Source: Pseudomonadales bacterium (GTDB taxonomy: Bacteria; Pseudomonadota; Gammaproteobacteria; Pseudomonadales; Azotimanducaceae). From it: DNA of 64,000 nt. Below are positions 5,733 through 37,352 of the stretch, one piece after another (positions within the stretch are counted from its first letter, which is position 1; every line of letters begins with the position of its first letter). The stretch is from the NCBI GenBank assembly GCA_022827905.1, contig JAJEIQ010000044.1, forward strand, positions 1-64,000, read 5' to 3'. The notes under the pieces were generated by a model. That model worked only from the letters and a program-made list of their open reading frames with translations, did not search any database and had not been told where the DNA came from. A program made the position numbers and the translations under genes.

Positions 5733-5751
5733 ACGAAGCCTTTCCCCACGG

Positions 5752-24609: not shown

Positions 24610-24655
24610 CGCGAACCTTCGGTTCGCGTATGGAGTTTCGCTAGCGCGAAACTCC
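24610..24655. repeat. Composite two-hairpin element (family B) at the grpE border
   Basis: The palindromes CGCGAACC-ttc-GGTTCGCG (24610-24628) and GGAGTTTCGC-tag-cGCGAAACTCC (24632-24655) form the same pair as at 2166-2212 and 60614-60657. The stop codon of the BisC-like gene (24641-24643) lies inside the second palindrome, so the element overlaps coding sequence. It marks the junction between the chaperone operon and the catabolic block. Confidence 0.8.
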
Positions 24656-26989
24656 GCACTCATTATGTGGGGCAGTTTCGGGTTGTTGGAATATCTTGAT
24701 GTCCGGCAGGGGGCCGTCGAACCGTTCCACTTCCACGAGGCAGCTATGGGCCGTCGGTCCCTGGGCGATTCTCGAGGTGCCGGCATCGCGGGTCAGCACG
24801 TTGGGATTGCCATGCACTTCGAGCGAGCCTTCCGCTGCGGGATCCTGCGGGTCGTACCAGGCGCCGGTGGGCAATTCGACCACGCCCGGACGGATGCCGT
24901 CGAACAGCACGGCGGCGGCAAGGCAGGCGCCGCGGTCATTGAAAACCCGCACCACGGCGCCGTCTTCGATGCCGCGCAGCGCCGCATCGGCCGGATTGAT
25001 GCGCAAGACCTCCCGTCCGTGGCGCTTGGCTTCACGGCTGGTCAAGGCGTGGTCCAGTTGGCTGTGCAACCGGGTCTTGGGCTGGTTGGATATCAGGTGC
25101 AGGGGATAGCGACGCGCCCGGGCGGCCCCGAGCCACTCCTGTTTGTCGACCCACACCGGGTGGCCCGGGCAGTCGTCGTAACCGAAGGTGGCAATCGTTT
25201 CGGAGAACAGCTCGATTCGGCCGCTTGGCGTGTTCAGCGGGTGCGCCGCGGGGTCTTCCCGGAACGCCTCCAGGATGAATTTCCGGTCCGCCACCTGATC
25301 TTCGAAGCAGATCTGCTCACCGGCCCAAAACTGATCAAACGGCGGCAGGGTCACGTCGGCCCGGGCCGCATTCCTCCGCGTCGTTTCGTAGAGCGCCTCG
25401 ACCCAGGCCATTTCGTCCCGGCCCTCGGTGAACTCCGCTGCCTTGCCGAAGCGCTCCGCGAGCGCGGCGAAGATCTCGAAGTCGGTGCGGGACTCCCCCA
25501 GCGGTTCGGCCGCCTTGCGCATCGGCGTAATGAAGCAGTCCGCCCTGCCAACGGCGAAGTCGTTTCGCTCCAATGGGACGGTGCAGGGAAAGACGATATC
25601 GGCATGCCGGGCGGTTGCGGTCCAGAACGGATCGCTGACGATCACCGCCTCCGGGCGGGTCCAGGCACGCCGCAGGCGGTTAAGATCCTGATGGTGGTGG
25701 AACGGGTTGCCCCCCGCCCAGAGGATGACCTTGATGTCGGGATAGATCAGCCGTTCACCGTTGTAGTCGAAGGCGCTGCCCGGTTTCTCCAACATTTCGC
25801 TGATGCGCGACACCGGGATGAATCGATTCAATGGCGGCTTCCCCTGGTCCATGGCGGCGGTGCCGAAGGTGGGTTGCCGACGGCCTGCGAAACCGATGTT
25901 GTGTACGGAGCCGTAGCCATAGGCCACACCGCCGCCAGGCTGGCCGACCTGGCCCAGCATGGCGGCCAGCAGGGTAATCATCCAGTAGCCCTGTTCGCCG
26001 TGCTCGGCCCGTTGCAGCGACCAGCTGATGCCCAGCAGCGTGCGGGCGCCGGCCATGCGCCGGGCAAGCGCCCGGATGTCGGTGGCCGCAATCCCGGAGA
26101 TGCCAGCCGCCCACTCCGCGTCCTTGGGCTGCCCGTCGGTCCGTCCGGTCAGGTAGGGGACGAACCGCTCAAAGCCAACGCAATATCGGTCGAGAAACGC
26201 TTGGTCGTGCAGATCGTCGTCGTACAGTGTATGAGCCAGACCGAGCATGATGGCCACATCCGTGTTCGGCCGGCACGCCCACCAGTCCGCGTCCACGAAG
26301 TCGGCCATGTCCTCCCTGAGCGGCGAGATGTTGACGAATTGCGTGGACCCGATGAGCCGCCTGAGTTGATCCGTGGCGGAATGGGCGCCAAGACCACCGT
26401 CCGTCACCTGCGTGTTCTTGAGGGCGATGCCGCCGAAACACACCACCGTTTCCGTTTCCTTCGCAATGTCGGAAATGGTCGGTGCCTGCACCATCAGATT
26501 CCAGAACGGCATGCCGAGGATGTGCGGAACGATCACCTCAGCGGCACCGGCGGAGTAGGAGGTGCGGGAGTGCACAAACCCGCCGATCAGGTTTAGGAAG
26601 CGCTTGAGCTGGCCTTGGGCGTGGTGAAAGCGGCCGGCGCTGGCCCAGCCGTAGGAGCCGCCGTAGATTGACTCATTCCCGCCGGTTTCGATGCCGTGCC
26701 GCAGCGCCTCAGCGGCCAGATCAAGGGCAGTGTCCCAATCGACCGGCACGAAGGGTTCACGGCCGCGGCCTTGGCCGCCGTCCTGCCAACGGGCTTGCAG
26801 GTAGCCGCGGCGCACCATCGGCGCTGGCACCCGGCAAGCGGGGTCCTGGGCATCAAGCAGCGACTGGCCGATGGGGGTCGGGTTGCGGTCAGCAGCGTAG
26901 TGATGCACCGCCACCACCCGGCCGTCGCGGCTTTCCAGCAGGTAGTTTCCCCAGTGGGTGCTGGTGGGTGTCAGTGCTTTCCGGGCCAT
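24641..26989 (-). CDS. BisC/DMSO-reductase-type molybdopterin oxidoreductase
   Basis: A 782-residue Mo enzyme without Fe-S cysteines or Tat signal, as in cytoplasmic biotin sulfoxide reductase. Family motifs are YGGSYGWASAGRFHHAQGQ and TSYSAGAAEVI; S146 corresponds to the serine that ligates molybdenum in DMSO/TMAO reductases. The C-terminal cofactor domain has HLISNQPKTRLHSQLDH. It probably reduces an S- or N-oxide (methionine or biotin sulfoxide are known substrates) or acts on a related compound. The last codons and stop lie in a palindromic repeat, suggesting the repeat replaced the original 3' end. It ends 36 bases upstream of the grpE promoter. Confidence 0.85.
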   Translation of the reverse strand: MARKALTPTSTHWGNYLLESRDGRVVAVHHYAADRNPTPIGQSLLDAQDPACRVPAPMVRRGYLQARWQDGGQGRGREPFVPVDWDTALDLAAEALRHGIETGGNESIYGGSYGWASAGRFHHAQGQLKRFLNLIGGFVHSRTSYSAGAAEVIVPHILGMPFWNLMVQAPTISDIAKETETVVCFGGIALKNTQVTDGGLGAHSATDQLRRLIGSTQFVNISPLREDMADFVDADWWACRPNTDVAIMLGLAHTLYDDDLHDQAFLDRYCVGFERFVPYLTGRTDGQPKDAEWAAGISGIAATDIRALARRMAGARTLLGISWSLQRAEHGEQGYWMITLLAAMLGQVGQPGGGVAYGYGSVHNIGFAGRRQPTFGTAAMDQGKPPLNRFIPVSRISEMLEKPGSAFDYNGERLIYPDIKVILWAGGNPFHHHQDLNRLRRAWTRPEAVIVSDPFWTATARHADIVFPCTVPLERNDFAVGRADCFITPMRKAAEPLGESRTDFEIFAALAERFGKAAEFTEGRDEMAWVEALYETTRRNAARADVTLPPFDQFWAGEQICFEDQVADRKFILEAFREDPAAHPLNTPSGRIELFSETIATFGYDDCPGHPVWVDKQEWLGAARARRYPLHLISNQPKTRLHSQLDHALTSREAKRHGREVLRINPADAALRGIEDGAVVRVFNDRGACLAAAVLFDGIRPGVVELPTGAWYDPQDPAAEGSLEVHGNPNVLTRDAGTSRIAQGPTAHSCLVEVERFDGPLPDIKIFQQPETAPHNECGVSR

Positions 26990-27000
26990 AGCGGCAGCGG

Positions 27001-28182
27001 CTACTTCAGCAGCTCCTCAGCGATGATGACCTGACGGATTTGGTTGGTGCCGGCACCGATTTCCATCAGCTTGCCGACTCGGTAGAGCCGGTTGATCTCC
27101 AGATCGCGGATGTAGCCGGCACCGCCATGCACCTGCACCCCGTTGTCAACGATGCGCATGAGCGCACGCCCGGCATGCAGCATCACGGCGGAGGTGCGCA
27201 TGTGCGCCTCGCCACGGCCGCCACCGCCAATCTCGAGGTCCGCGACTTCCTTCGCCACTTGACAGCTAAAGGCGCGCAGCGACTGCAGATCGGTGTACAT
27301 GTCGGCGAGCAGCCCCTGCACCAGTTGGAAGCGGCCGATCGGCTGCCCGAACTGCTGGCGGCTGGCAGCGTACTCGAGGGTGATGTCCAGCGCCCGCTGG
27401 GCGACGCCGATCATGTGGAAGCAGAGGATCACGCGCTCCATGTTGAGCCCGCTCATCACCACCCCCACCCCACCGTCAACGCGGCCGACCACGTTGCTGG
27501 CCGGAACCCGGCAGCTGTCGAACACCAGCTCGGCGGTGGGCACCCCGCGCCAGCCCATCTTGTCCAAGTGCTGTGCCACCTGGAAGCCGGGCGTTGCGGT
27601 CTCGAATGCGAACGCGGTGACGCCCTTGGCGCCCCCTCCGGGCGAGGTCTTGGCGTACAGCAGGATCAGGTCCGCCACCGGGCCCAAGGAAATGAACATC
27701 TTGCGGCCGTTGATGACGAAGCCGTCGCCATCGCGCACCGCTCGCGTTGCCATCGAACCCAAGGCATCGGAGCCTGCCCCCGGCTCGGTCAGGCCCAGTG
27801 CGCCAATCAGGCTGCCCGCGCAGAAACCGGGCAGGTAGCGCGCCTTGAGGGCATCGTCGGCATTGCGCACGAGGTTGTGCAGGCAGATGCTCTCGCTGCC
27901 CATCCAAGCGGCGCCGAAGCTCGCGTTCCAGTAAGACAGGGCTTCGGTGATCAGGCACTGTTCGATGAACCCGAGCCCTTGGCCGCCGTAGCGTTCGGGG
28001 ACGGAGGTGCCGAGCAGCCCGATCTCGTGCAAAGCGCGGAATTGCGCTTCCGGAAACCAGTCATCCCGGTCCATCCGGTCGCAAAGCGGATGCAATTGCT
28101 CGCGGCTGTACCGGTACACCGTATCGTAGATCTGCTGGTGCTCCTCGGTGTAGCCGTAGGTGGCGAGGTCGGGGATGGTCAT
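27001..28182 (-). CDS. Acyl-CoA dehydrogenase, isovaleryl-CoA dehydrogenase-like
   Basis: A flavoprotein of about 393 residues that introduces the alpha,beta double bond into an acyl-CoA. FAD/substrate motifs are LTEPGAGSDA and GRKMFISLG. In the C-terminal motif EIGAGTNQIRQ the usual Glu is replaced by Gly-Ala as in isovaleryl-CoA dehydrogenase, and the base is expected to be Glu in GLNMERVIL (residue about 249), as in that branch. ATG 28182 is preferred over TTG 28212. It lies downstream of the MaoC gene on the same strand with an 77-base gap, a likely catabolic pair. Confidence 0.85.
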   Translation of the reverse strand: MTIPDLATYGYTEEHQQIYDTVYRYSREQLHPLCDRMDRDDWFPEAQFRALHEIGLLGTSVPERYGGQGLGFIEQCLITEALSYWNASFGAAWMGSESICLHNLVRNADDALKARYLPGFCAGSLIGALGLTEPGAGSDALGSMATRAVRDGDGFVINGRKMFISLGPVADLILLYAKTSPGGGAKGVTAFAFETATPGFQVAQHLDKMGWRGVPTAELVFDSCRVPASNVVGRVDGGVGVVMSGLNMERVILCFHMIGVAQRALDITLEYAASRQQFGQPIGRFQLVQGLLADMYTDLQSLRAFSCQVAKEVADLEIGGGGRGEAHMRTSAVMLHAGRALMRIVDNGVQVHGGAGYIRDLEINRLYRVGKLMEIGAGTNQIRQVIIAEELLK

Positions 28183-28259: not shown

Positions 28260-28718
28260 TCAGTCCCAATAGCGGTTGATGAAGGTGGCGACCGCGGCGG
28301 CTTCGCCGGTGTCGGCAAAGGAAAATCGGATCCCGTAGTGCACCTCGATGCCGCTGTCCCGATCGAGCACCTTGTCGATCGTGGCCCGGCAGCGGATGCG
28401 CGAGCCCACCGTGACCGGCTTGAGAATGCGGATGCCGTCGATGCCTTTGACGATCATGTGCGCCAAGTTGATTTCCATGGCCTGCCAGAACAGCGACGGG
28501 AACAGGGCCGGCAGATACAGACCCGGCGCCACCAAGGCGCCAAAGGGCGATGCCTTGCAGCGCTCCTCGTCCCAGTGAATCCACTCCTCGTTGCCGGTGC
28601 CGCGGCAGAAGTCCTGAATGCCCTCGGCGGTAATCGTGACCGGTTCGGAGTTGACGATCCGCTGGCCTTCGAGACGGTGGAAGTCGTCGCACGAGTCGAT
28701 GACGATTTTACGGCTCAT
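28260..28718 (-). CDS. MaoC-like (hot-dog fold) acyl-CoA dehydratase/hydratase
   Basis: A 152-residue hot-dog protein of the MaoC/NodN type. The hydratase signature appears as FCRGTGNEEWIHWDEER followed by FGALVAPGLYL; in many members the corresponding block is IAHGY, so the His of the Asp/His dyad is replaced by Pro here, while the upstream D/H-like residues remain. It probably hydrates an enoyl-CoA, though activity is uncertain because of that change. It diverges from the paaA-like gene with 178 bases between them. Confidence 0.75.
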   Translation of the reverse strand: MSRKIVIDSCDDFHRLEGQRIVNSEPVTITAEGIQDFCRGTGNEEWIHWDEERCKASPFGALVAPGLYLPALFPSLFWQAMEINLAHMIVKGIDGIRILKPVTVGSRIRCRATIDKVLDRDSGIEVHYGIRFSFADTGEAAAVATFINRYWD

Positions 28719-28896: not shown

Positions 28897-29856
28897 ATGA
28901 CCAGCTCGGCCGGGAGCGCGGCGGTTGAAAAACAGGATGCCGCAGAAGCGGCGATGCTCGCCCGCATCGATGCCGGGGAGCTGTTCGAAGATGCGGCGGA
29001 ACTTTCCCCCCGCTACAAGGAAATCCTCCGTCAGACCGTCGAAATCGCCTCGATCAGCGAGATCAGCGTGCTCACTTGGGCCTGCACCGCCTTTCGCACG
29101 GCGCCCGACATCGGCGCCAAGATCGCCGTTTGCGCCACCATCCTCGATGAGGTCGGCCACGCCTACCACCAGGGCATTCTCGCCGAGCAATTCGGCGTGG
29201 ACGTGCATGCCCGCGCCTTCCGTGACGACATCGCCCACATCTGGACCTGGCCGATCATGGAGATCCCCATCCGCAGTTACATCGAGTTCGTGGTGATGCA
29301 GTCGATGCTCGACCGCGCCGGCCTGCACTGGACCAAGGACCTGGAACTGCACTGCAGCTACGCGCCCTACCGCCGCACGCTGCGCAAGGTGAACTTCGAG
29401 GAAGGCTTCCACATGCGCCACGGCAACTTCTGGACGGAGTTCTACTGGAACCACAGCGACGAGACCCGCGCTGCGGTGCAGCGCGCCATCGACTGGATCT
29501 TCCCGTTCGGCGTGATGTGGTTCGGCAAGCCGGACAATCTCAAGACGCGCCCGGAGCAATTGACCTACCGGGTGCGCGGCTGGAGCAACGACTTCATGCG
29601 CGAGAAGTGGCTTCAGTCAACCTGCGCCTTCCTGAACCGCCTTGGCGCCGACTTTCCCGCCGAATTCGACGCCGAAAGCAAGCGATGGGTGCTCACCATG
29701 CCCTATCCCATGCTCTACGACGCTGAAACCTACACCTGGAGCGGTGAGCGGTGCTCCCACGAGGCGTACTGGAAACACTCGCGCAAGGGCGGCCCCATGC
29801 GCCCGGCGGCCTACGAGCGGCTGCGCGGCGAAGTCTGGGGCGACGCGCTGTGGTAG
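28897..29856 (+). CDS. PaaA-like diiron monooxygenase catalytic subunit
   Basis: A 319-residue ferritin-like protein matching the catalytic subunit of ring-1,2-phenylacetyl-CoA epoxidase. Two ExxH motifs that would bind the diiron centre are seen: E85/H88 in LDEVGHAYHQ and E169/H172 in NFEEGFHMRHG. The C-terminus has MPYPMLYDAETYTWSG. AAGGA lies upstream of ATG 28897. It is the first gene of a five-gene operon (28897-31501) together with two half-PaaD genes, paaB and paaC homologues. No reductase (PaaE), ring-opening enzyme (PaaZ/G) or ligase (PaaK) is nearby, so the substrate may be a CoA ester other than phenylacetyl-CoA. Confidence 0.85.
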   Translation: MTSSAGSAAVEKQDAAEAAMLARIDAGELFEDAAELSPRYKEILRQTVEIASISEISVLTWACTAFRTAPDIGAKIAVCATILDEVGHAYHQGILAEQFGVDVHARAFRDDIAHIWTWPIMEIPIRSYIEFVVMQSMLDRAGLHWTKDLELHCSYAPYRRTLRKVNFEEGFHMRHGNFWTEFYWNHSDETRAAVQRAIDWIFPFGVMWFGKPDNLKTRPEQLTYRVRGWSNDFMREKWLQSTCAFLNRLGADFPAEFDAESKRWVLTMPYPMLYDAETYTWSGERCSHEAYWKHSRKGGPMRPAAYERLRGEVWGDALW

Positions 29857-30167
29857 TGGACCGCGCCGCCGTCGAAGCCGCGGTCGGCCGGGTGCTCGAC
29901 CCGCACATCAACGTGCCCCTGACCGAAATGGGGATGCTCGGCGGTGTGCAGGCGGACGCCGAGGGCAATGTCGATGTCTCCTTGGTGTTCCCTTGCCTCG
30001 GCTGCCCGGCGTTCACCATGCTCAAGGAGAACGTCCGCCGACAGGTGCAACGGGTGGCCGGCGTTGGCGAGGTGCGGGTGCGGGTGGATTGGGAAGCCCC
30101 TTGGGACCGGTCCCTGATGTCCGACCGCGCCAAGCAGTACGCCGCTCGCAGCGGTTACCGGATCTAG
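29850..30167 (+). CDS. PaaD N-terminal half: DUF59/MIP18-type Fe-S assembly protein
   Basis: A protein of about 105 residues with the MIP18/DUF59 fold: DPHINVPLTEMGML, the Cys motif FPCLGCPAFT and a C-terminal VRVDWEAPWDR. It matches the first domain of PaaD, which helps mature the phenylacetyl-CoA epoxidase system. The start overlaps the paaA-like stop (GTG 29850, or GTG 29856), indicating coupled translation. The zinc-ribbon half of PaaD is absent here and encoded separately two genes further on. Confidence 0.8.
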   Translation: MVVDRAAVEAAVGRVLDPHINVPLTEMGMLGGVQADAEGNVDVSLVFPCLGCPAFTMLKENVRRQVQRVAGVGEVRVRVDWEAPWDRSLMSDRAKQYAARSGYRI

Positions 30168-30181
30168 GCGGAGGCGCAGCC

Positions 30182-30418
30182 GTGCCGCTCGGCCGCTCCA
30201 CCAGCCTCGACCGGGTTTTCGAGGTGTTCGGCCGCGACCAGGCCGAGCGCCCCCTGTCCCACATCGGCAGCATCGTCGCACCCAACCAGGAACTGGCGGT
30301 GGCCCGGGCGCGCATCCTGTACTCGGAGCGGCCCTGGGTGGAACTCTGCGTGGCACCCGCCGAGTCGTTCATGAACTGCCTGCAGCAAGGGCGCGACGGC
30401 CGGGTGGGGCTCGCCTGA
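30182..30418 (+). CDS. PaaB-like epoxidase subunit
   Basis: A 78-residue protein resembling PaaB: RVFEVFGRDQAERPLSHIGSI (in the parts RVFEVFGR and LSHIGSI) and VARARILYSERPWVELCVAP. PaaB is a small regulatory or structural subunit that bridges PaaA-PaaC heterodimers. GTG 30182 has GGAGG about 8 bases upstream. It is somewhat shorter than the usual 95 residues. Its place between the two PaaD halves differs from the canonical A-B-C-D-E order. Confidence 0.75.
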   Translation: MPLGRSTSLDRVFEVFGRDQAERPLSHIGSIVAPNQELAVARARILYSERPWVELCVAPAESFMNCLQQGRDGRVGLA

Positions 30419-30627
30419 TGAACCGCGAAACCGCAGCCGCCGGCCACGCCCGGCAATTCCGCCCCACCGACGAGTACGATGGCCAAGTGCGCTGCCCCTG
30501 GTGCGAGTCCACCGACACCCGCCTGGTCAGCCCCTATGGCCCAAGCGTCGCGGAGATGATGTTCGAATGCTTGGACTGCAAGCAGGGCTTCGGCTGGCTG
30601 AAATGGCAGCACAAGTTGCCGGATTGA
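30418..30627 (+). CDS. PaaD C-terminal half: zinc-ribbon protein
   Basis: A 69-residue protein with two CxxC pairs (VRCPWCEST and FECLDCKQGF) separated by about 20 residues, the pattern of the zinc-binding tail of canonical PaaD. Its start codon overlaps the PaaB-like stop by one base. Together with the DUF59 gene it reconstitutes both PaaD domains as separate polypeptides. Its likely role is to help load or assemble the oxygenase; this is inference from PaaD. Confidence 0.7.
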   Translation: MNRETAAAGHARQFRPTDEYDGQVRCPWCESTDTRLVSPYGPSVAEMMFECLDCKQGFGWLKWQHKLPD

Positions 30628-30640
30628 CGGACGCCCCCGC

Positions 30641-31501
30641 ATGAGCTACCCCGCCGCCGTCAGTCAAGCGCTGGAAAGCGAGCTGCTGTGCCTAGCCGAC
30701 AGCAATTGGGTGCTGGGCCATTGGTACATCAACTGCATCCTCAATGGCCGGGAATTGACCGACTTCACCTCCATGGCCGGCATCGCCGAGGAAAAGCTCG
30801 GCCATGCCCGGGCCCTGTTCCGGTTCATGGAGGAGCACTACGAACTGCCCGAGTACCAATTGGAATTCGCCCGCCCGGCAGACCAGGTTCACGGCATGGA
30901 GTTGCTCGACGCGCCTCCCGGCAACTGGGCAGACTTCGTTTTGACGCTGTACTTGGCAGACAAGGCGCTGTGGCGGTTCGCCGACACCTTGCGCACGGGC
31001 GGTTTCGCGCCGGTTGCCAACCTAGTCACCAAGTTCGGTGAAGAAGCCTACTTCCACCAACTCTGCATCGACGGCTGGCTGAAGGCGTTGGATGAGGGCG
31101 AACGGGGCGACCTGGCCGCGGCGCTGCGGGGCCGGCTGCCGCCGGTGTTCCGCTGGTTCCACAGTCCGGCTCCCGACCCGTTGCTGGAAGCCGGAATTCG
31201 CACCGAGCCTCTGGCCCATGCCAAGGACCGCTTCGCGGCCGATGTCCAGGACTTGATCGAATCGGTGCCGGAAGGATCCTCGGCATCCAGCACGGCGCTT
31301 GCCCAAGGCGTCGATCCGACGGACTGGGATGCCCAGCGGCGGCGTCCTCAGGGCAGCGTCCTGCCGCCGCGCCTGTGGGAGTCGATGACACCCACCAGCG
31401 AGGCGGCCAAGTTGGCCCGCCGCCCGTTGGCGGTCAGCATAGACGACAACATCGATCTGTTTGGCAAAGTCAAGAAAGACGACACCGAACCGCAATTCTG
31501 A
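30641..31501 (+). CDS. PaaC-like structural subunit of diiron monooxygenase
   Basis: A 286-residue ferritin-like helical protein. Opening LCLADSNWVLGHWYINCILNG and FTSMAGIAEEKLGHARALF (seen in pieces) match PaaC, the non-catalytic partner of PaaA; the ExxH metal motif is not complete here, as expected for PaaC. A 40-residue C-terminal tail (about 245-286) is longer than in the enteric protein. It is the last gene of the operon and converges on a ferredoxin gene with only 22 bases between stops. Confidence 0.8.
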   Translation: MSYPAAVSQALESELLCLADSNWVLGHWYINCILNGRELTDFTSMAGIAEEKLGHARALFRFMEEHYELPEYQLEFARPADQVHGMELLDAPPGNWADFVLTLYLADKALWRFADTLRTGGFAPVANLVTKFGEEAYFHQLCIDGWLKALDEGERGDLAAALRGRLPPVFRWFHSPAPDPLLEAGIRTEPLAHAKDRFAADVQDLIESVPEGSSASSTALAQGVDPTDWDAQRRRPQGSVLPPRLWESMTPTSEAAKLARRPLAVSIDDNIDLFGKVKKDDTEPQF

Positions 31502-31523
31502 GCGTCGGAGCTAGGCCGCGAAC

Positions 31524-31841
31524 TCAGCCGTTGTCCGCAATCCTCAGTTCGATCCCGTCGAGTGCCTCGGTCATGTGGATCTGACAGGCCAAGCGGCTGT
31601 TGCCGCGCCGGTTCTCCACCATGCACAGCATGCTCTCCTCAAGATCCCCGACCGCAGGCAGGCGGGAAAGCCACTCGCCGCTGATGAATGAGTGACAGGT
31701 GCCGCAGGCCGCAGCGCCGCCGCACTCCGCCACCATGCCGGGAATCTGCTGGTTGAAGGCCCCCTCCATGAGCGTGAAGCCAACGCCGACCTCCTCTTCG
31801 TGGCGCTCGCCGAGCGGGTCGATGTAGATGACGGTGGGCAT
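31524..31841 (-). CDS. Adrenodoxin-type 2Fe-2S ferredoxin
   Basis: A 105-residue plant/adrenodoxin-fold ferredoxin. Cluster ligands are in CGGAAACGTC (C-x5-C-x2-C) and LACQI (fourth Cys). The position next to the PaaABC-like operon, which lacks a PaaE reductase, makes it a candidate electron donor to the diiron enzyme; it could equally serve the P450 or another oxygenase in the window. Its promoter would lie in the repeat-filled region after 31842. Confidence 0.85.
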   Translation of the reverse strand: MPTVIYIDPLGERHEEEVGVGFTLMEGAFNQQIPGMVAECGGAAACGTCHSFISGEWLSRLPAVGDLEESMLCMVENRRGNSRLACQIHMTEALDGIELRIADNG

Positions 31842-31920: not shown

Positions 31921-32109
31921 GGAGCAAGGGCACGCCCTCCCGGAACGAGGGCACGCGCTCCCGGAACGAGGGCATCTTGCCCTCGGATTGAACCAAGGGA
32001 CCCCGTCCAGGGCGGGACGCCCCTCGCTCCAAGGAAGGCGCCGGAACGAGGGCATCTTGCCCTCGAACCGAACCAAGGGATTCCGTCGAGGGCGGGACGC
32101 CCTCGCTCC
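31921..32109. repeat. Cluster of six family A repeats, partly an 80-base duplication
   Basis: Variant copies lie at about 31921-31939, 31942-31961, 31963-31987, 32006-32030, 32043-32067 and 32085-32109, in alternating orientation. The last four form two direct copies of an approximately 80-base unit (copy, AACCAAGGGA-type spacer, inverted copy). This fills most of the 354-base gap between the ferredoxin and the enoyl-CoA hydratase genes; nothing else but a promoter is seen there. Spacers are not unique and units are palindromic, so it is not a CRISPR array. Confidence 0.85.
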
Positions 32110-32195: not shown

Positions 32196-32987
32196 ATGGA
32201 ATTCAGCGACTACCAGCGCCTCAAGCTCAGCCGCCGCGGCCGCATCCTCGTCATCGCCATCGACAACGGCCGGATGAACGCCATTGACGGGCGCATGCAC
32301 AAGGAACTGGCGCGGGTGTTTATCGATGCCCAGGACGACGACGGCAGCGACCTCGTCATACTAACCGGCAACGGACGCGCCTTCTGCGCCGGCGGCGACA
32401 TGGAATGGTTCCAGATGACCATCGAGAACCCCAAGGAGTTTCGGGCCATCCTCCCGGAAGCCAAGCGCATCGTGACCTCGCTGCTCGATATGGAGAAACC
32501 ACTGATCTGCCGGCTGAACGGCGCCGCCGCCGGGCTCGGCGCCACCATTGCCCTGATGAGCGATGTCATCATCGCCGCCGACACCGCAGCGATTGGCGAC
32601 CCCCACGTCAAGGTGGGCTTGGTGGCGGGCGATGGCGGCGCGATCATCTGGCCGCAGTTGATCGGCTTCGCCCGGGCCAAGGAACTGCTCATGACCGGCG
32701 ACATGCTGCCGGCCACCGAGGCGGAGCGCCTCGGACTGGTCAACTATGCCGTGCCGGCGGACGAGCTCGATGCCAAGGTGGACGAAATCGCCGGCAAGAT
32801 CCTGGGCAATCCGCGCTGGGCGGTGCGCTGGACCAAGACGGCAGCCAACATCCCATTGCGGGAGCTTGCCGCCAAGCTCACCGACGCCGCCCTCGCCTAC
32901 GAGCTGGTCACCAACACCACGGAGGACCGCCGGGAAACCGTGGCTGCCTTCGTCGAAAAGCGCCAGCCCCAACTGACCGGCGAGTGA
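32196..32987 (+). CDS. Enoyl-CoA hydratase/isomerase family protein
   Basis: A 263-residue crotonase-fold protein. The oxyanion-hole motifs are RAFCAGGDMEWF and LNGAAAGLGATIALMSDVIIA, and the substrate loop has GDPHVKVGLVAGDGG. The glutamates that hydratases use (one near each oxyanion motif) are not both obvious: the second site reads VAGDGG rather than xxPExG, so isomerase or other crotonase chemistry is possible. An AGGAG ribosome site precedes ATG 32196. Next comes an AraC regulator on the same strand. Confidence 0.85.
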   Translation: MEFSDYQRLKLSRRGRILVIAIDNGRMNAIDGRMHKELARVFIDAQDDDGSDLVILTGNGRAFCAGGDMEWFQMTIENPKEFRAILPEAKRIVTSLLDMEKPLICRLNGAAAGLGATIALMSDVIIAADTAAIGDPHVKVGLVAGDGGAIIWPQLIGFARAKELLMTGDMLPATEAERLGLVNYAVPADELDAKVDEIAGKILGNPRWAVRWTKTAANIPLRELAAKLTDAALAYELVTNTTEDRRETVAAFVEKRQPQLTGE

Positions 32988-33027: not shown

Positions 33028-34077
33028 GTGGAAGCAACGCCGCCACTGAAGAAGTCCTCTTTCGGGCCAATCGCCGTCGCCATCTACCAGACGCTGGAGT
33101 CCTACGGCGTCGATGCCGACCAGGTGATGCGCAACGCCGGCGTGGACCTCGCCCGCGTGCAGGATCCCACCACCCGCCTGGAGCCCTCGGTGCATCGCCG
33201 CATCGTGGGAGAGGCCGTGGAGCGCACCGGCGACTGCAGCTTCGGGCTGCGCTTCTCCGATTTCGTGCATCCGACCTCCTTTCACGCCCTCGGGCTGGCG
33301 CTGCTCTCAAGCAGCACCCTCAGCGCGTTCTGCAAGCGCTGGGTGCGCTACCACTCGTTCATAACCACCATGGGCGAGGTCACCTTCGACGAAGCGGCCA
33401 GTGAGCCGGTGCTGGTCTTTCCCTCCCAGCAGCCGAACCCGAACTCCAAGGTGGGCCGGGCGATGATCGATGGGCAGATCGCCACGGTGCTCAAGCTCAT
33501 CCGCTTTATGTACCGGCCGGACTACTATCCGAGAAGGGTGGAGCTGATCTGCCCGGAAGTGCCCGGCACCCGGCGCCACTACGAGCACTACCTGGGGCCG
33601 AAGGTGCAATTCAGCGCCGAGCGCAACGGGCTGTACTTCGACCCCGACGACCTGACCGTGCGCCTGCCGGCGGCCAACGCCGAACTGGCGCGCCTGAACG
33701 ACGAGGTCGTGGTCAAGTTCCTGGCGCGGCTGGAGAAGGCGGACGTCGTGGCCCGGGCCCACTCCAAGCTCATTGAACTCCTGCCTTCGGGGCACTGCTC
33801 CAAGGCCGAAGTGGCCCGCGCCCTGCACATGAGCGTGCGCACGCTGCACAACCGATTGACGGCGGCCGGAACCACCTATCAGCAACTGCTCGACCGCACC
33901 CGCCGGGAATTGGCGGAGCAGTACATGCGCCAGCCGAACGTGTCCGTGAGCGAGGTGGCCTACCTGCTCGGATTCTCCGATTGCAGCAACTTTTCCCGAG
34001 CCTTCCACCGTTGGACGGGCCGCTCGCCGAGCGTGTACCGTGAACAGTCGAAGGCCGGCATCTACCCCGCCGCCTGA
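33028..34077 (+). CDS. AraC-family transcriptional regulator
   Basis: A 349-residue regulator with an arabinose-binding-like N-terminal domain (PF12625 type, residues 15-200) and a C-terminal double helix-turn-helix (KAEVARALHMSVRTLHNRL and VSEVAYLLGFSDCSNFSRAFHRWTG, given in parts: AYLLGFSDCSNFSRAF). The start is GTG 33028. Regulators of this subgroup often control catabolic genes for fatty or organic acids. It lies in a rightward run between the enoyl-CoA hydratase and a CoA transferase and probably controls these or the paa-like operon. Confidence 0.88.
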   Translation: MEATPPLKKSSFGPIAVAIYQTLESYGVDADQVMRNAGVDLARVQDPTTRLEPSVHRRIVGEAVERTGDCSFGLRFSDFVHPTSFHALGLALLSSSTLSAFCKRWVRYHSFITTMGEVTFDEAASEPVLVFPSQQPNPNSKVGRAMIDGQIATVLKLIRFMYRPDYYPRRVELICPEVPGTRRHYEHYLGPKVQFSAERNGLYFDPDDLTVRLPAANAELARLNDEVVVKFLARLEKADVVARAHSKLIELLPSGHCSKAEVARALHMSVRTLHNRLTAAGTTYQQLLDRTRRELAEQYMRQPNVSVSEVAYLLGFSDCSNFSRAFHRWTGRSPSVYREQSKAGIYPAA

Positions 34078-34086
34078 TTGCGCCCC

Positions 34087-35253
34087 ATGGCTGCCAAGGG
34101 ACCGCTGAGCGGATACCGGATCATCGAGATCGCCGGCATTGGCCCCGGCCAATTCTGCGGCATGTTGCTGGCGGACATGGGGGCCGAGCTACTGCGCATC
34201 GACCGCGCGGATGGAGGCGACCGCGGGGTCGCCATGCCGGCCAAATACAATCTGATGAACCGCAGCCGGCCGGTCATCGCGATCGATCTCAAGCAACCCG
34301 AGGGGGTGGAACTGGTCCTGCGCCTCTGCGCTGAGGCGGATGCGCTGTTCGAGGGGTTTCGGCCGGGGGTCATGGAGCGGCTTGGCCTAGGCCCCACCGA
34401 GTGCATGGCGCGCAATCCGCGGCTGGTGTACGGCCGCATCACCGGCTGGGGACAGGAAGGCCCGCTGGCCGACACGGCCGGCCACGACACCAACTACATC
34501 GCCTTGGCTGGCGCGCTGGGCACCTTGGGCGAGGCAGGACGCCCGCCACCGGTGCCGCTCAACCTAATCGGCGACTTCGGCGGCGGCGGCCTGTACCTGG
34601 CGCTGGGCCTTCTGGCGGCCCTGCTGGAGGCGCACCGGTCCGGGCAGGGCCAAGTGGTGGACGCGGCCATGGTGGACGGCACCGCTTCGATGATGACCCT
34701 CTTCTACGGCATGCTGGCGGGTGGCCTCTGGCAGGACCGCCGCGGTGTCAACCTGTTCGACGGCAGCGCCCCGTTCGTGCGCGCCTATGAAACGAGCGAC
34801 GGCGAGTACGTGGCCGTCTGCGCCATTGAGAGACGCTTCTTCACCGCCCTGCTTGAGGTCCTGCAGACGAGCGAAATCGACCCGGCCGATCAGTACGACA
34901 GAACGGCTTGGCCTGGGCATCACGCGGCGCTGGAAAGGCTGTTCAAAGGCCGGACCCGGGATGAGTGGAGCGAGGCGTTCGCCGGAACCGATGCCTGTTT
35001 CGCCCCGGTGCTGTCGTTAACCGAAGCGGCGGAGCATCCGCACAGCGTGGCCCGGAACAGCTACCTCACCGTGGACGGCATCCTGCAGCCAGCACCGGCC
35101 CCGCGCTTTTCCCGGACCCCGCCGCAAATCCAGCATCCGCCCACGGAAGCGGACGGCAACGCCGGGGACAGCCTGGCGAGCTGGGGGCTGAATGATGCGG
35201 AAGTCGCGCGGCTGCACCGGCTCGGCATTCTGAACTCGAGGAAAGGCGGCTGA
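34087..35253 (+). CDS. CaiB/BaiF-type CoA transferase or alpha-methylacyl-CoA racemase
   Basis: A protein of about 388 residues of the class III CoA-transferase family. The N-terminus GYRIIEIAGIGPGQFCGMLL and the block GHDTNYIALAGALGTLG resemble alpha-methylacyl-CoA racemase more than formyl-CoA transferase; racemases use the H/D pair in that block. A racemase would fit branched-chain or isoprenoid-tail oxidation together with the acyl-CoA dehydrogenases and phytanoyl-CoA dioxygenase in the window. ATG 34087 follows the AraC stop by 9 bases; TTG 34078 is a possible longer start. Confidence 0.85.
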   Translation: MAAKGPLSGYRIIEIAGIGPGQFCGMLLADMGAELLRIDRADGGDRGVAMPAKYNLMNRSRPVIAIDLKQPEGVELVLRLCAEADALFEGFRPGVMERLGLGPTECMARNPRLVYGRITGWGQEGPLADTAGHDTNYIALAGALGTLGEAGRPPPVPLNLIGDFGGGGLYLALGLLAALLEAHRSGQGQVVDAAMVDGTASMMTLFYGMLAGGLWQDRRGVNLFDGSAPFVRAYETSDGEYVAVCAIERRFFTALLEVLQTSEIDPADQYDRTAWPGHHAALERLFKGRTRDEWSEAFAGTDACFAPVLSLTEAAEHPHSVARNSYLTVDGILQPAPAPRFSRTPPQIQHPPTEADGNAGDSLASWGLNDAEVARLHRLGILNSRKGG

Positions 35254-35972: not shown

Positions 35973-37352
35973 ATGGCGGAATCAATCTCAAACGAGCCCG
36001 GCGCCGCGCGTTGTCCCGGGGTGTCGGTTCAAGACCTGTTGGCACGCGACAGCCGCCGCGTTCCCGACTATCTGACCACCCAGAGTTACGAGTTCCTCGG
36101 CGACGAGGACATTTCATATTCCCGTTACACCGACCGTGCCTTCTTTGATGCGGAAATTGCCAAGTTATGGTCCAGAACCTGGCAGTGGGCCTGTCGCGAG
36201 GAACACATTCCCGAGGCGGGCGACTACTACGTGTACGACGTGGGCCCCTACTCAGTGATCGTGCTGCGCACCGAAAGAGGCGAGATCAAAGCCTTTCGCA
36301 ATGCCTGCATGCATCGCGGCACAAAGCTCAAGCCATCGTTCACCAGCGGCGGCTGCAGCAGCCTGCGCTGCCCTTACCACGGCTGGGAGTATCACCTCGA
36401 CGGCACCTTAAAGTCGTTTCCCTGCGAATGGGACTTTCCCCATGTGAACCCGGACGAGAAGCGGCTGTCCGGCGTGCGGGCAGAACTGTGGGGCGGTTTC
36501 GTGTTCATCAACCTCGACCCCCACGCCATGCCGCTGCTGGAATACCTTGCGCCGCTGCCGGACCACATCGACAGCAGCGTGTTCGAGCAGCGCTACGTTG
36601 CGCAACACATTCAGAAAGAGCTCAACTGCAACTGGAAGATCGCCTCCGAAGCCTTTCTGGAGGCTTATCACGTGATGGAAACCCACAGCCAGTTGATGCG
36701 CACCAACGGCGATGCCAACACCCAGTACGACTGCTACGGCGACCATGTGAGCAGGCTGATCAACGTGGCCGGCACGCCCAGCGTATTCCTGAAAGAGTCA
36801 CTCACCGAACAGGAAATACTGGATCTGTTCCTGATCGGCGACCGCGACGACGTCGGCGCCGAGCTGAAGGTGCCCGAAGGCGGCACCGCCCGGCAAGTGA
36901 TGGCGCAGCACTTTCGCGACAGCGTCGGCGAAGCCGGGCTCGACCTGTCCGGCGTGAGCGACTCGGAGATCGTGGACTCAATCGCCTATTTCGTATTCCC
37001 CAACCAACAGTTTTTCTCCGGCGTGTCGTTCCCCATCGTGTACCGTTTCCGTCCTCTGGGCATGCAGCACGACAAGGCGCTGTTTGACTTGATCCTGCTC
37101 AAAACGCGCCCCATGGACGGCTCCCCCGTGGAAACCGCGGAGCCGCACCCGCTAAAGGCGGAAGCGTCCTACACCGAAGTGCCTGGCATGGACCCTTACG
37201 TCGGACACGTCTTCGACCAAGACACCGGCAACATGCAGGCCGCCCAGGAAGGCGCCATGGCCACGGACAAGGCGGGCGCCACCCTGGGCAACTACCAGGA
37301 AATACGCATACGGCACTTTCATCAGACGCTCACCAAGTATCTGAGCGGTTGA
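35973..37352 (+). CDS. Rieske non-heme iron oxygenase, alpha subunit
   Basis: A 459-residue aromatic-ring-hydroxylating-type oxygenase. The Rieske 2Fe-2S ligands are C112/H114 (CMHRG) and C133/H136 (CPYHGW). The mononuclear iron site is in EAFLEAYHVMETH with H233 and H238. The bridging residue between the two centres, usually Asp, is Glu (E230) here, a change known from carnitine monooxygenase CntA. No beta subunit or dedicated reductase lies adjacent, so it may be a homomultimer fed by the ferredoxin at 31.5 kb. The next gene is an SDR that could act on its product. Confidence 0.9.
   Translation: MAESISNEPGAARCPGVSVQDLLARDSRRVPDYLTTQSYEFLGDEDISYSRYTDRAFFDAEIAKLWSRTWQWACREEHIPEAGDYYVYDVGPYSVIVLRTERGEIKAFRNACMHRGTKLKPSFTSGGCSSLRCPYHGWEYHLDGTLKSFPCEWDFPHVNPDEKRLSGVRAELWGGFVFINLDPHAMPLLEYLAPLPDHIDSSVFEQRYVAQHIQKELNCNWKIASEAFLEAYHVMETHSQLMRTNGDANTQYDCYGDHVSRLINVAGTPSVFLKESLTEQEILDLFLIGDRDDVGAELKVPEGGTARQVMAQHFRDSVGEAGLDLSGVSDSEIVDSIAYFVFPNQQFFSGVSFPIVYRFRPLGMQHDKALFDLILLKTRPMDGSPVETAEPHPLKAEASYTEVPGMDPYVGHVFDQDTGNMQAAQEGAMATDKAGATLGNYQEIRIRHFHQTLTKYLSG

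Follow-up and report, generated by a model that had tools for sequence, protein, structure and literature searches.

A PaaABC-like diiron enzyme with an adjoining ferredoxin, probably distinct from phenylacetyl-CoA epoxidase, in a Pseudomonadales bacterium

Among the described systems closest to the locus reported here is the phenylacetyl-CoA 1,2-epoxidase of E. coli, PaaABCE. Two residues of its PaaA subunit, E49 and K68, have been proposed as an electron relay (in passages of PMC4498308 and PMC7497051), and they are mutated in structure 4II4, going by the title of that structure. PaaA and PaaC have also been proposed, in a portion of PMC13186573, as genomic markers of phenylacetate degradation. 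The expression 'PaaA-like', in an excerpt of PMC2948915, designates an unrelated E1-like enzyme. A literature search, with few subscription journals and no bioRxiv preprints in its coverage, returned no description of the PaaA-like subgroup analysed below, in keeping with the preliminary description of the locus, which had singled it out as a candidate for an undescribed system.

The window, that is, the whole 64,000-nucleotide stretch of DNA analysed, carries the following genes (counts out of 15 refer to the loci of the window clade, defined below):

24641..26989, minus strand: bisC-family molybdopterin oxidoreductase, recurrent (TIGR00509 973.3 bits, cut-off 1017.55; cluster in at least 7 of 15)
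27001..28182, minus strand: acyl-CoA dehydrogenase (PF00441, PF02771, PF02770; cluster in at least 11 of 15)
28260..28718, minus strand: MaoC-type hot-dog protein, divergent from paaA (PF01575 42.5 bits; cluster in 15 of 15, and in 0 of 72 other loci)
28897..29856, plus strand: paaA-like, putative catalytic diiron subunit, 319 residues (stop 29854-29856; PF05138, PaaA_PaaC, 108.1 bits)
29850..30167, plus strand: D1, DUF59 half of PaaD (alternative GTG starts 29850 and 29856, overlap with the 3' end of paaA; PF01883, FeS_assembly_P, 49.7 bits)
30182..30418, plus strand: paaB-like, putative bridging subunit, 78 residues (GTG start 30182, stop 30416-30418; PF06243, PaaB, 34.9 bits, cut-off 27)
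30418..30627, plus strand: D2, zinc-ribbon half of PaaD (ATG 30418, 1-nt overlap with paaB; PF23451, Zn_ribbon_PaaD, 53.9 bits, cut-off 27)
30641..31501, plus strand: paaC-like, putative structural subunit, 286 residues (PF05138 62.3 bits; C-terminal extension in a 14-row PaaC alignment)
31524..31841, minus strand: putidaredoxin-type 2Fe-2S ferredoxin, convergent (Fer2 29.8 bits; adjoins paaC in 12 window-clade loci)
32196..32987, plus strand: enoyl-CoA hydratase/isomerase-family protein, less constant (PF00378 165.9 bits; cluster in at least 3 of 15)
33028..34077, plus strand: AraC-family regulator, less constant (cluster in at least 6 of 15)
34078..35253, plus strand: CaiB-type (class III) CoA-transferase, candidate CoA-thioester maker (cluster in at least 5 of 15)

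The gene set and order claimed earlier, namely paaA, D1, paaB, D2, paaC and a convergent ferredoxin, are thus present as six open frames, and the divergent MaoC-type and acyl-CoA dehydrogenase neighbours are equally in place. In a Pfam search, all five operon genes and the ferredoxin scored above the curated cut-offs; the 28.5 bits of PF05138 were exceeded by both the paaA-like and the paaC-like gene of the same operon.

Relatives of the window PaaA were found on 184 stretches in genome_contigs, the best 80 of which were kept for examination; the family survey drawn with them comprises 87 loci, and all counts out of 87 hold within this sample. The relatives' genes were called with a custom script that misses small genes (the D1 cluster, for example, holds 50 loci, while the D1 profile finds more), so that cluster counts are lower bounds; neighbour clusters with at least 4 loci were considered, and their names are based on one or a few tested members or on plasmid annotation. 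In the profile survey, the A-D1-B-D2-C order was present in 13 loci including the window, with PaaA identities to the window PaaA of 52-92% and the ferredoxin in 12 of the 13, and this recurrence rules out a chance or artefactual origin of the locus. The non-canonical PaaA-like family, delimited here by an A-D1-B start, a split PaaD and the absence of E49/K68, is widespread in bacteria and salt-loving archaea, and apparently uncharacterised. The division of PaaD between two genes, initially regarded as a special trait, proved ordinary: it is shared by 75 of the 87 loci (11 are incomplete and one, L088, is ambiguous) and by a canonical haloarchaeal cluster (L130), and we reject it as a mark of novelty. 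The window's 15-row clade is marked instead by the B-D2-C order and the putidaredoxin-type ferredoxin.

The window PaaA has the PaaA fold and all six diiron ligands, from which a single row of the 87 in the family deviates, at one ligand. Its score against the PaaA equivalog model TIGR02156 is 79.8 bits, for a cut-off of 280, and the other operon products also fall below the canonical cut-offs of the TIGR02156-02159 set: PaaB with 27.1 of 85.45 bits, the PaaC-like protein with 38.2 of 133.35, and D1 and D2 with 41.5 and 31.9 against the 108.15 of PaaD. In the PaaA tree, a branch with support 100/98 (100 again without the outgroup) splits off the 28 canonical rows and leaves the window PaaA outside, in a clade of its own comprising 15 rows (100/100), as the preliminary description had proposed to check. 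The 87 non-canonical rows lie on one side of a branch supported at just 90/45, and an alternative tree joining the window clade to the canonical rows was not rejected (AU p 0.453); a single clade for all of them is unproven. All 27 canonical rows compared (a set that leaves out L130 and L030, under the 250-bit limit, and L031, with no match) retain the lysine-bridge residues E49 and K68, which are absent from 87 of 87 family rows, the window having Ala and Thr there. The idea that the bridge was lost as a mere result of PaaE loss is unsupported, because L130 keeps both residues and no PaaE was found in the 10.8 kb read around it. Phe108 is replaced by Met in 15 of 15 window-clade rows; since it is present in 60 of the 87 family rows, aryl binding may persist in a large part of the family. 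The sub-cut-off PaaA score, the position outside the canonical clade and the altered pocket and lysine-bridge positions uphold the earlier view that the locus encodes a diiron enzyme of PaaABC type other than phenylacetyl-CoA epoxidase.

We consider it probable, at roughly two chances in three, that the locus encodes a ferredoxin-fed multicomponent diiron acyl-CoA oxygenase with a substrate other than phenylacetyl-CoA. The genome also has canonical paaABCDE, on another contig (C2), so that the absence of PaaE claimed at the outset does not extend beyond the locus; this PaaE could serve both oxygenases, and the window enzyme might be a fast-evolving second phenylacetyl-CoA epoxidase borrowing it. 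The PaaABC fold and subunits agree with such an origin, as does the weakly PaaG-like hydratase/isomerase-family protein adjoining the ferredoxin (143.4 bits, cut-off 345.15), but we hold it to be very improbable: the window PaaA is only 27% identical to the genome's own canonical PaaA and far below the equivalog cut-off, Phe108 and the lysine bridge are lost, and a profile search of the genome's contigs gave neither PaaK nor PaaZ above cut-off. A paaE elsewhere, one of the signs by which the preliminary description would have recognized an ordinary phenylacetate pathway, is accompanied by a PaaA outside the phenylacetyl clade and by sub-cut-off PaaK and PaaZ. Haloarchaeal members of the family evoke another aromatic-ring epoxidase, acting on benzoyl-CoA or a substituted aryl-CoA and doing the job of BoxAB, for their neighbours include an AMP ligase (the one tested, of L112, scored 357.6 against the benzoate-CoA ligase model, cut-off 375.25), UbiD-type proteins and CoA-transferase subunits, and Phe108 is kept. 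This role seems improbable for the window clade, which lacks Phe108, in which an aldehyde dehydrogenase cluster was detected in just 1 of 15 loci, and in which a thiolase-like protein (at least 5 of 15 loci) and a ChsH2-type zinc-ribbon/OB protein (2 of 3 loci tested; the third small protein, of L046, is a weak MaoC match with 22.4 of 27 bits, not ChsH2) point to side-chain rather than ring chemistry. No neighbouring gene names the substrate; a steroid-like, a benzoyl-like or another compound is suggested by no more than a few neighbours, and these occur in part of the loci.

The usual partners of putidaredoxin-type ferredoxins are P450s. The nearest solved chains of the window ferredoxin are ferredoxin VI (1e9m, E 5.2e-22) and putidaredoxin (1gpx, E 6.3e-20), and with 46 P450 match rows and four further ferredoxins of putidaredoxin type in the genome, it might serve other enzymes. 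We regard it as unlikely that the non-phenylacetyl diiron oxygenase is reduced by another protein, its neighbour feeding P450s or the Rieske-type oxygenase encoded 4 kb away (35973-37352). The profiles used revealed no adjacent ferredoxin in 55 family loci (11 sister and 44 remaining ones, many short), and within the window clade L056 has none in the 5.5 kb past paaC, so an adjoining ferredoxin is not necessarily a feature of the whole family. However, a ferredoxin adjoins paaC, on either strand, in 12 of the 13 window-clade loci extending past paaC, which makes the lone ferredoxin a plausible donor to the diiron enzyme; the Rieske-type gene belongs to no cluster of at least 4 loci; and haloarchaeal loci have a lone ferredoxin of a different type upstream of the operon in 17 of 17 cases. 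No PaaE-type reductase was found in the surveyed non-canonical loci, the window locus included. In an 11-locus control of this search, full PaaE was recovered in four (L005, L129, L131, L132) and a fragment in L020; none was seen in L037, which is non-canonical, or in L010, L014, L016, L018 and L024, which are 3.7-kb pieces judged too short.

For the favoured ferredoxin-fed oxygenase, comparison of sequences suggests the following scheme. The neighbouring CoA-transferase, or an AMP-forming ligase in some relatives, would supply the CoA ester, and one oxygen atom from O2 would be added to the acyl part of this non-phenylacetyl thioester. The PaaA-like subunit would hold the diiron site and the substrate, with the PaaC-like protein as its iron-free partner and the PaaB-like protein bridging the assembly; D1 and D2 would share, as two proteins, the iron-loading job of PaaD. 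NAD(P)H would be the source of the electrons, which a putidaredoxin-reductase-type flavoprotein, encoded outside the locus, would hand to the neighbouring ferredoxin, in replacement of the fused PaaE, and the product would go to the MaoC-type protein, the acyl-CoA dehydrogenase and further CoA-ester enzymes. The MaoC-type neighbour has Asn in place of the hydratase Asp, and keeps the His, in 15 of 15 window-clade loci; its best NCBIfam match is the PaaZ model, with 31.7 of 562.8 bits. More speculatively, and in our view doubtful though possible, the window clade may have switched both its electron path, exchanging PaaE for a putidaredoxin-type ferredoxin and losing the bridge, and its chemistry, oxygenating a non-aromatic or side-chain position and handing the product to the Asp-to-Asn MaoC-type partner and a retro-aldolase-like module. 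This would be one of several switches in an ancient PaaA-like family common to bacteria and archaea.

Neither PaaE nor the lysine bridge accompanies many PaaA/PaaC-like pairs, and in this genome PaaK is missing too; it could be a mistake to interpret such pairs as remnants or incomplete versions of a phenylacetate pathway. Natural variants at E49 and K68 are a further asset of the family: they open the electron route to the PaaA diiron site to direct tests, in which the two types of lone ferredoxin are candidate donors.

Compared with E. coli PaaABCE (3PVR, 3PW1, 4IIT), the window system shares the PaaA fold, the three-subunit set, the six iron ligands and PaaD-type maturation parts; it differs by its 22% identity to E. 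coli PaaA in the structural alignment, the lack of a nearby PaaE, a two-gene PaaD with D1 between A and B, and the replacement of E49/K68 and Phe108. The benzoyl-CoA epoxidase BoxAB is unlike it, BoxB being a chain of 481 residues with no PaaB or PaaC partners, whereas the window has a 319-residue PaaA-like protein together with B and C; BoxA is described, in a passage of PMC4498308, as a reductase unlike PaaE. The PaaA-like protein SSO1313 of Sulfolobus (4MUD) also differs from the window PaaA, with a chain of 235 residues. The canonical Paa system of haloarchaea (NF041867-NF041869; L130, on a Natribaculum luteum plasmid) resembles the window in its separate DUF59 and zinc-ribbon proteins and in that no PaaE-type reductase was found in the stretch read. 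The window B, D1 and D2 score below the cut-offs of these models (17.3 of 150, 53.2 of 180 and 42.6 of 100 bits, respectively), and L130, unlike the window, has the order A-B-C-D1-D2, a PaaA inside the canonical clade, and both E49 and K68.

We confirmed from the reading frames, the sequence and Pfam that the genes and their order are real as the preliminary description had given them: an operon reading A, D1, B, D2, C, in which D1 and D2 are the DUF59 and zinc-ribbon halves of PaaD, followed by a convergent ferredoxin gene.

28897-29856, + strand, paaA-like gene
29850 or 29856 to 30167, + strand, D1 (DUF59)
30182-30418, + strand, paaB-like gene
30418-30627, + strand, D2 (zinc ribbon)
30641-31501, + strand, paaC-like gene
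31524-31841, - strand, ferredoxin gene

Each of these six genes reaches its Pfam cut-off, but the five operon genes score far below the NCBIfam equivalog cut-offs for PaaA-PaaD, bacterial or haloarchaeal. The PaaB-like protein (30182-30415) matches TIGR04031 better (34.3 bits, below that model's cut-off of 57.2) than it does the NCBIfam PaaB models; TIGR04031 bears the name 'Htur_1727 family rSAM-partnered candidate RiPP', and this family may itself be PaaB-like. A REP-like palindromic element, GGAACGAGGGCATCTTGCCCTCG, occurs at 31961-32102 and also at 5750, 21816, 58352 and 60661; the window holds 6 copies at up to 3 mismatches (0 expected) and the genome 8 exact copies, two of them in the gap following the ferredoxin gene.

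To survey relatives, we searched genome_contigs with an alignment of seven sequences, the window included, and found 184 encoding stretches; the best 80 of these 184, six plasmid loci and the window gave 87 loci, whose gene order was read by profile searches. The order A-D1-B-C-D2 is found in 45 loci, A-D1-B-B-C-D2 in 14 and the window's A-D1-B-D2-C in 13, where the ferredoxin is convergent in 9, co-directed in 3 and missing from L056. The other 15 comprise A-D1-B (4), A-D1-B-C (4), A only (2), A-D1, A-D1-B-D2 and A-D1-B-B (one each), as well as L112, which has an additional PF05138 piece, and L093, where the frame is broken. In 75 of the 87 loci both D1 and D2 are seen, as separate genes, so that a split PaaD is the normal state in the surveyed family and not, as had been proposed, a special trait of the window locus; 11 loci reach the contig end ahead of any readable D2, and in L088 the sequence continues past paaC with a weak D2 match (18 bits). 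Among the surveyed loci, only the window clade (15 PaaAs, the window's and those of L043-L056) showed D2 between B and C: 13 of the 15 rows do so, as does L050, which is truncated after D2; L043 is truncated earlier. Hosts of the family include Gammaproteobacteria and other Proteobacteria (Bradyrhizobium and Agrobacterium plasmids among them), Chloroflexota, Actinomycetota (e.g. Rubrobacter), Gemmatimonadota, Acidobacteriota, Thermus plasmids and haloarchaea. The 14 loci with two consecutive PaaB-like genes are L039, L068, L069, L070, L074, L076, L077, L079, L082, L084, L090, L092, L121 and L122. One open frame of a Chloroflexota contig (L096:9611-11242) holds both PaaA and D1 matches and may encode a fusion.

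In a PaaA tree of 87 family, 28 canonical and 2 PaaC rows, the canonical PaaAs form one side of a branch supported at 100/98, and the 15 rows of the window clade group at 100/100, so forming a clade of their own, which the preliminary description had asked to check; given these supports, the window PaaA stands outside the canonical clade. The branch of the whole 87-row family has a support of only 90/45, with a program warning of long branches, and in a tree without the PaaC rows, joining the window clade to the canonical rows was not rejected (AU p 0.453). The grouping of all 87 as a single non-canonical family draws on traits in common, namely a D1 gene lying between A and B, the split PaaD and the loss of E49 and K68. 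In E. coli PaaA numbering, verified on the K-12 sequence, the iron ligands E42, E72, H75, D126 and H158 are conserved in 87/87 family rows and E155 in 86/87 (Gln in L038). The excerpts available of PMC4498308 and PMC7497051, our source for residue roles, propose E49/K68 as a lysine bridge relaying electrons from PaaE. Both residues are present in 27/27 canonical and 0/87 family rows; in place of K68 the window clade has Thr or Ser, the 12 rows of its sister group Ala, 17 haloarchaeal rows Val and the other 43 rows Ile. Phe108 is Met in 15/15 window-clade rows, Leu in 10/12 sister rows and Phe in the other 60, and at Lys103, 14/15 window-clade rows have Trp or Phe, where the others all have Lys or Arg. 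Bridge loss as a mark of PaaE absence was not supported: L130, a canonical haloarchaeal PaaA with a split PaaD, retains E49 and K68, and PaaE was not found in the stretch read; the loss thus marks the non-canonical family. The window PaaC has equivalents of H75, D126 and H158, lacks those of E42, E72 and E155 in the alignment, and is read as the iron-free subunit. Its C-terminal extension (31372-31498) is seen, in a 14-row alignment, in the 8 window-clade rows other than L056, where it is shorter; the 5 outside rows have none.

Queries with E. coli PaaE and the genome's own PaaE recovered full PaaE in 4 canonical loci, as a control, and no full-length PaaE-type reductase in the 87; the only matches, 17, come from the 17 haloarchaeal loci and span the ferredoxin part alone (E. 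coli PaaE residues ∼248-351). Compared with solved chains, the window ferredoxin resembles putidaredoxin and ferredoxin VI, whereas that of L104, the sole haloarchaeal one compared, is plant-type; a lone ferredoxin would therefore seem to have been placed beside the operon separately in two lineages. In 55 of the 87 loci, namely 11 of the sister group and the 44 remaining ones, the profiles used detected no ferredoxin. The window's own genome (81 contigs, 96.8% complete) has a single putidaredoxin-reductase-type gene, but as it also has 46 P450 match rows and 4 more ferredoxins of the same type as the window's, the window ferredoxin is possibly shared with other enzymes. The genome carries two PF05138 pairs, the window's and one on another contig within a canonical paaABCDE cluster with fused PaaD and PaaE, whose PaaA is 27% identical to the window's over the aligned part. 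In this genome with its canonical cluster, the PaaK and PaaZ models gave no match above their cut-offs. An orthologue of the window PaaA occurs in four genomes out of 97 from relatives, the own one counted (the other three at 92%); the four are all of one genus, and each has a canonical PaaA as well. Across 398 genomes of the phylum, again counting the own one, a single additional match reached E 1e-20 or better, at 37% identity.

The divergent genes upstream of the operon encode a MaoC-type protein, acyl-CoA dehydrogenase and a bisC-family molybdoenzyme; those downstream encode an enoyl-CoA hydratase-family protein, a CaiB-type CoA-transferase and, between these two, an AraC regulator.

Neighbouring genes among the 15 window-clade loci (all neighbour-cluster counts are lower bounds)
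MaoC-type protein (window 28260-28718), all 15
acyl-CoA dehydrogenase, at least 11
bisC-family enzyme, at least 7
AraC, at least 6
CaiB, AMP ligase, thiolase-like protein and FAS1-DH-type MaoC, at least 5 each
enoyl-CoA hydratase, at least 3
aldehyde dehydrogenase, at least 1

Aligned to E. coli PaaZ, the MaoC-type protein and its 14 relatives all have Asn for the hydratase Asp, which we take to be catalytic, and retain the His. By Pfam, the thiolase-like protein and the FAS1-DH protein were confirmed in L049. For the ChsH2-type protein this held in L052 as well as L053, though not in L046. The 17 haloarchaeal loci have AMP ligase and enoyl-CoA hydratase (17 each), CoA-transferase subunits (at least 10) and UbiD-type proteins (at least 11; Pfam-checked in L085 and L112), the last as two clusters, each in at least 11 loci (L040, L085, L112 and others). 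Enoyl-CoA hydratase (at least 19) and aldehyde dehydrogenase (at least 18) accompany the 44 remaining loci, Thermus and Rubrobacter included. Since the neighbour sets differ, the branches probably feed different pathways, and the window branch looks least like ring opening.

The literature searched held no paper describing this variant. In the sections available, PMC13186573 takes PaaA/PaaC to be markers for the degradation of phenylacetate and assigns each of the 32 archaeal cases to a partial configuration, and PMC2653477 lists 25 each of paaA, B, C and D genes, all within operons. The earlier interpretation holds in part: PaaE is present elsewhere in the genome, its lack being only local, and the split PaaD does not set the locus apart, but the window's system is a variant of the PaaABC kind whose electron path and substrate are both likely to differ.
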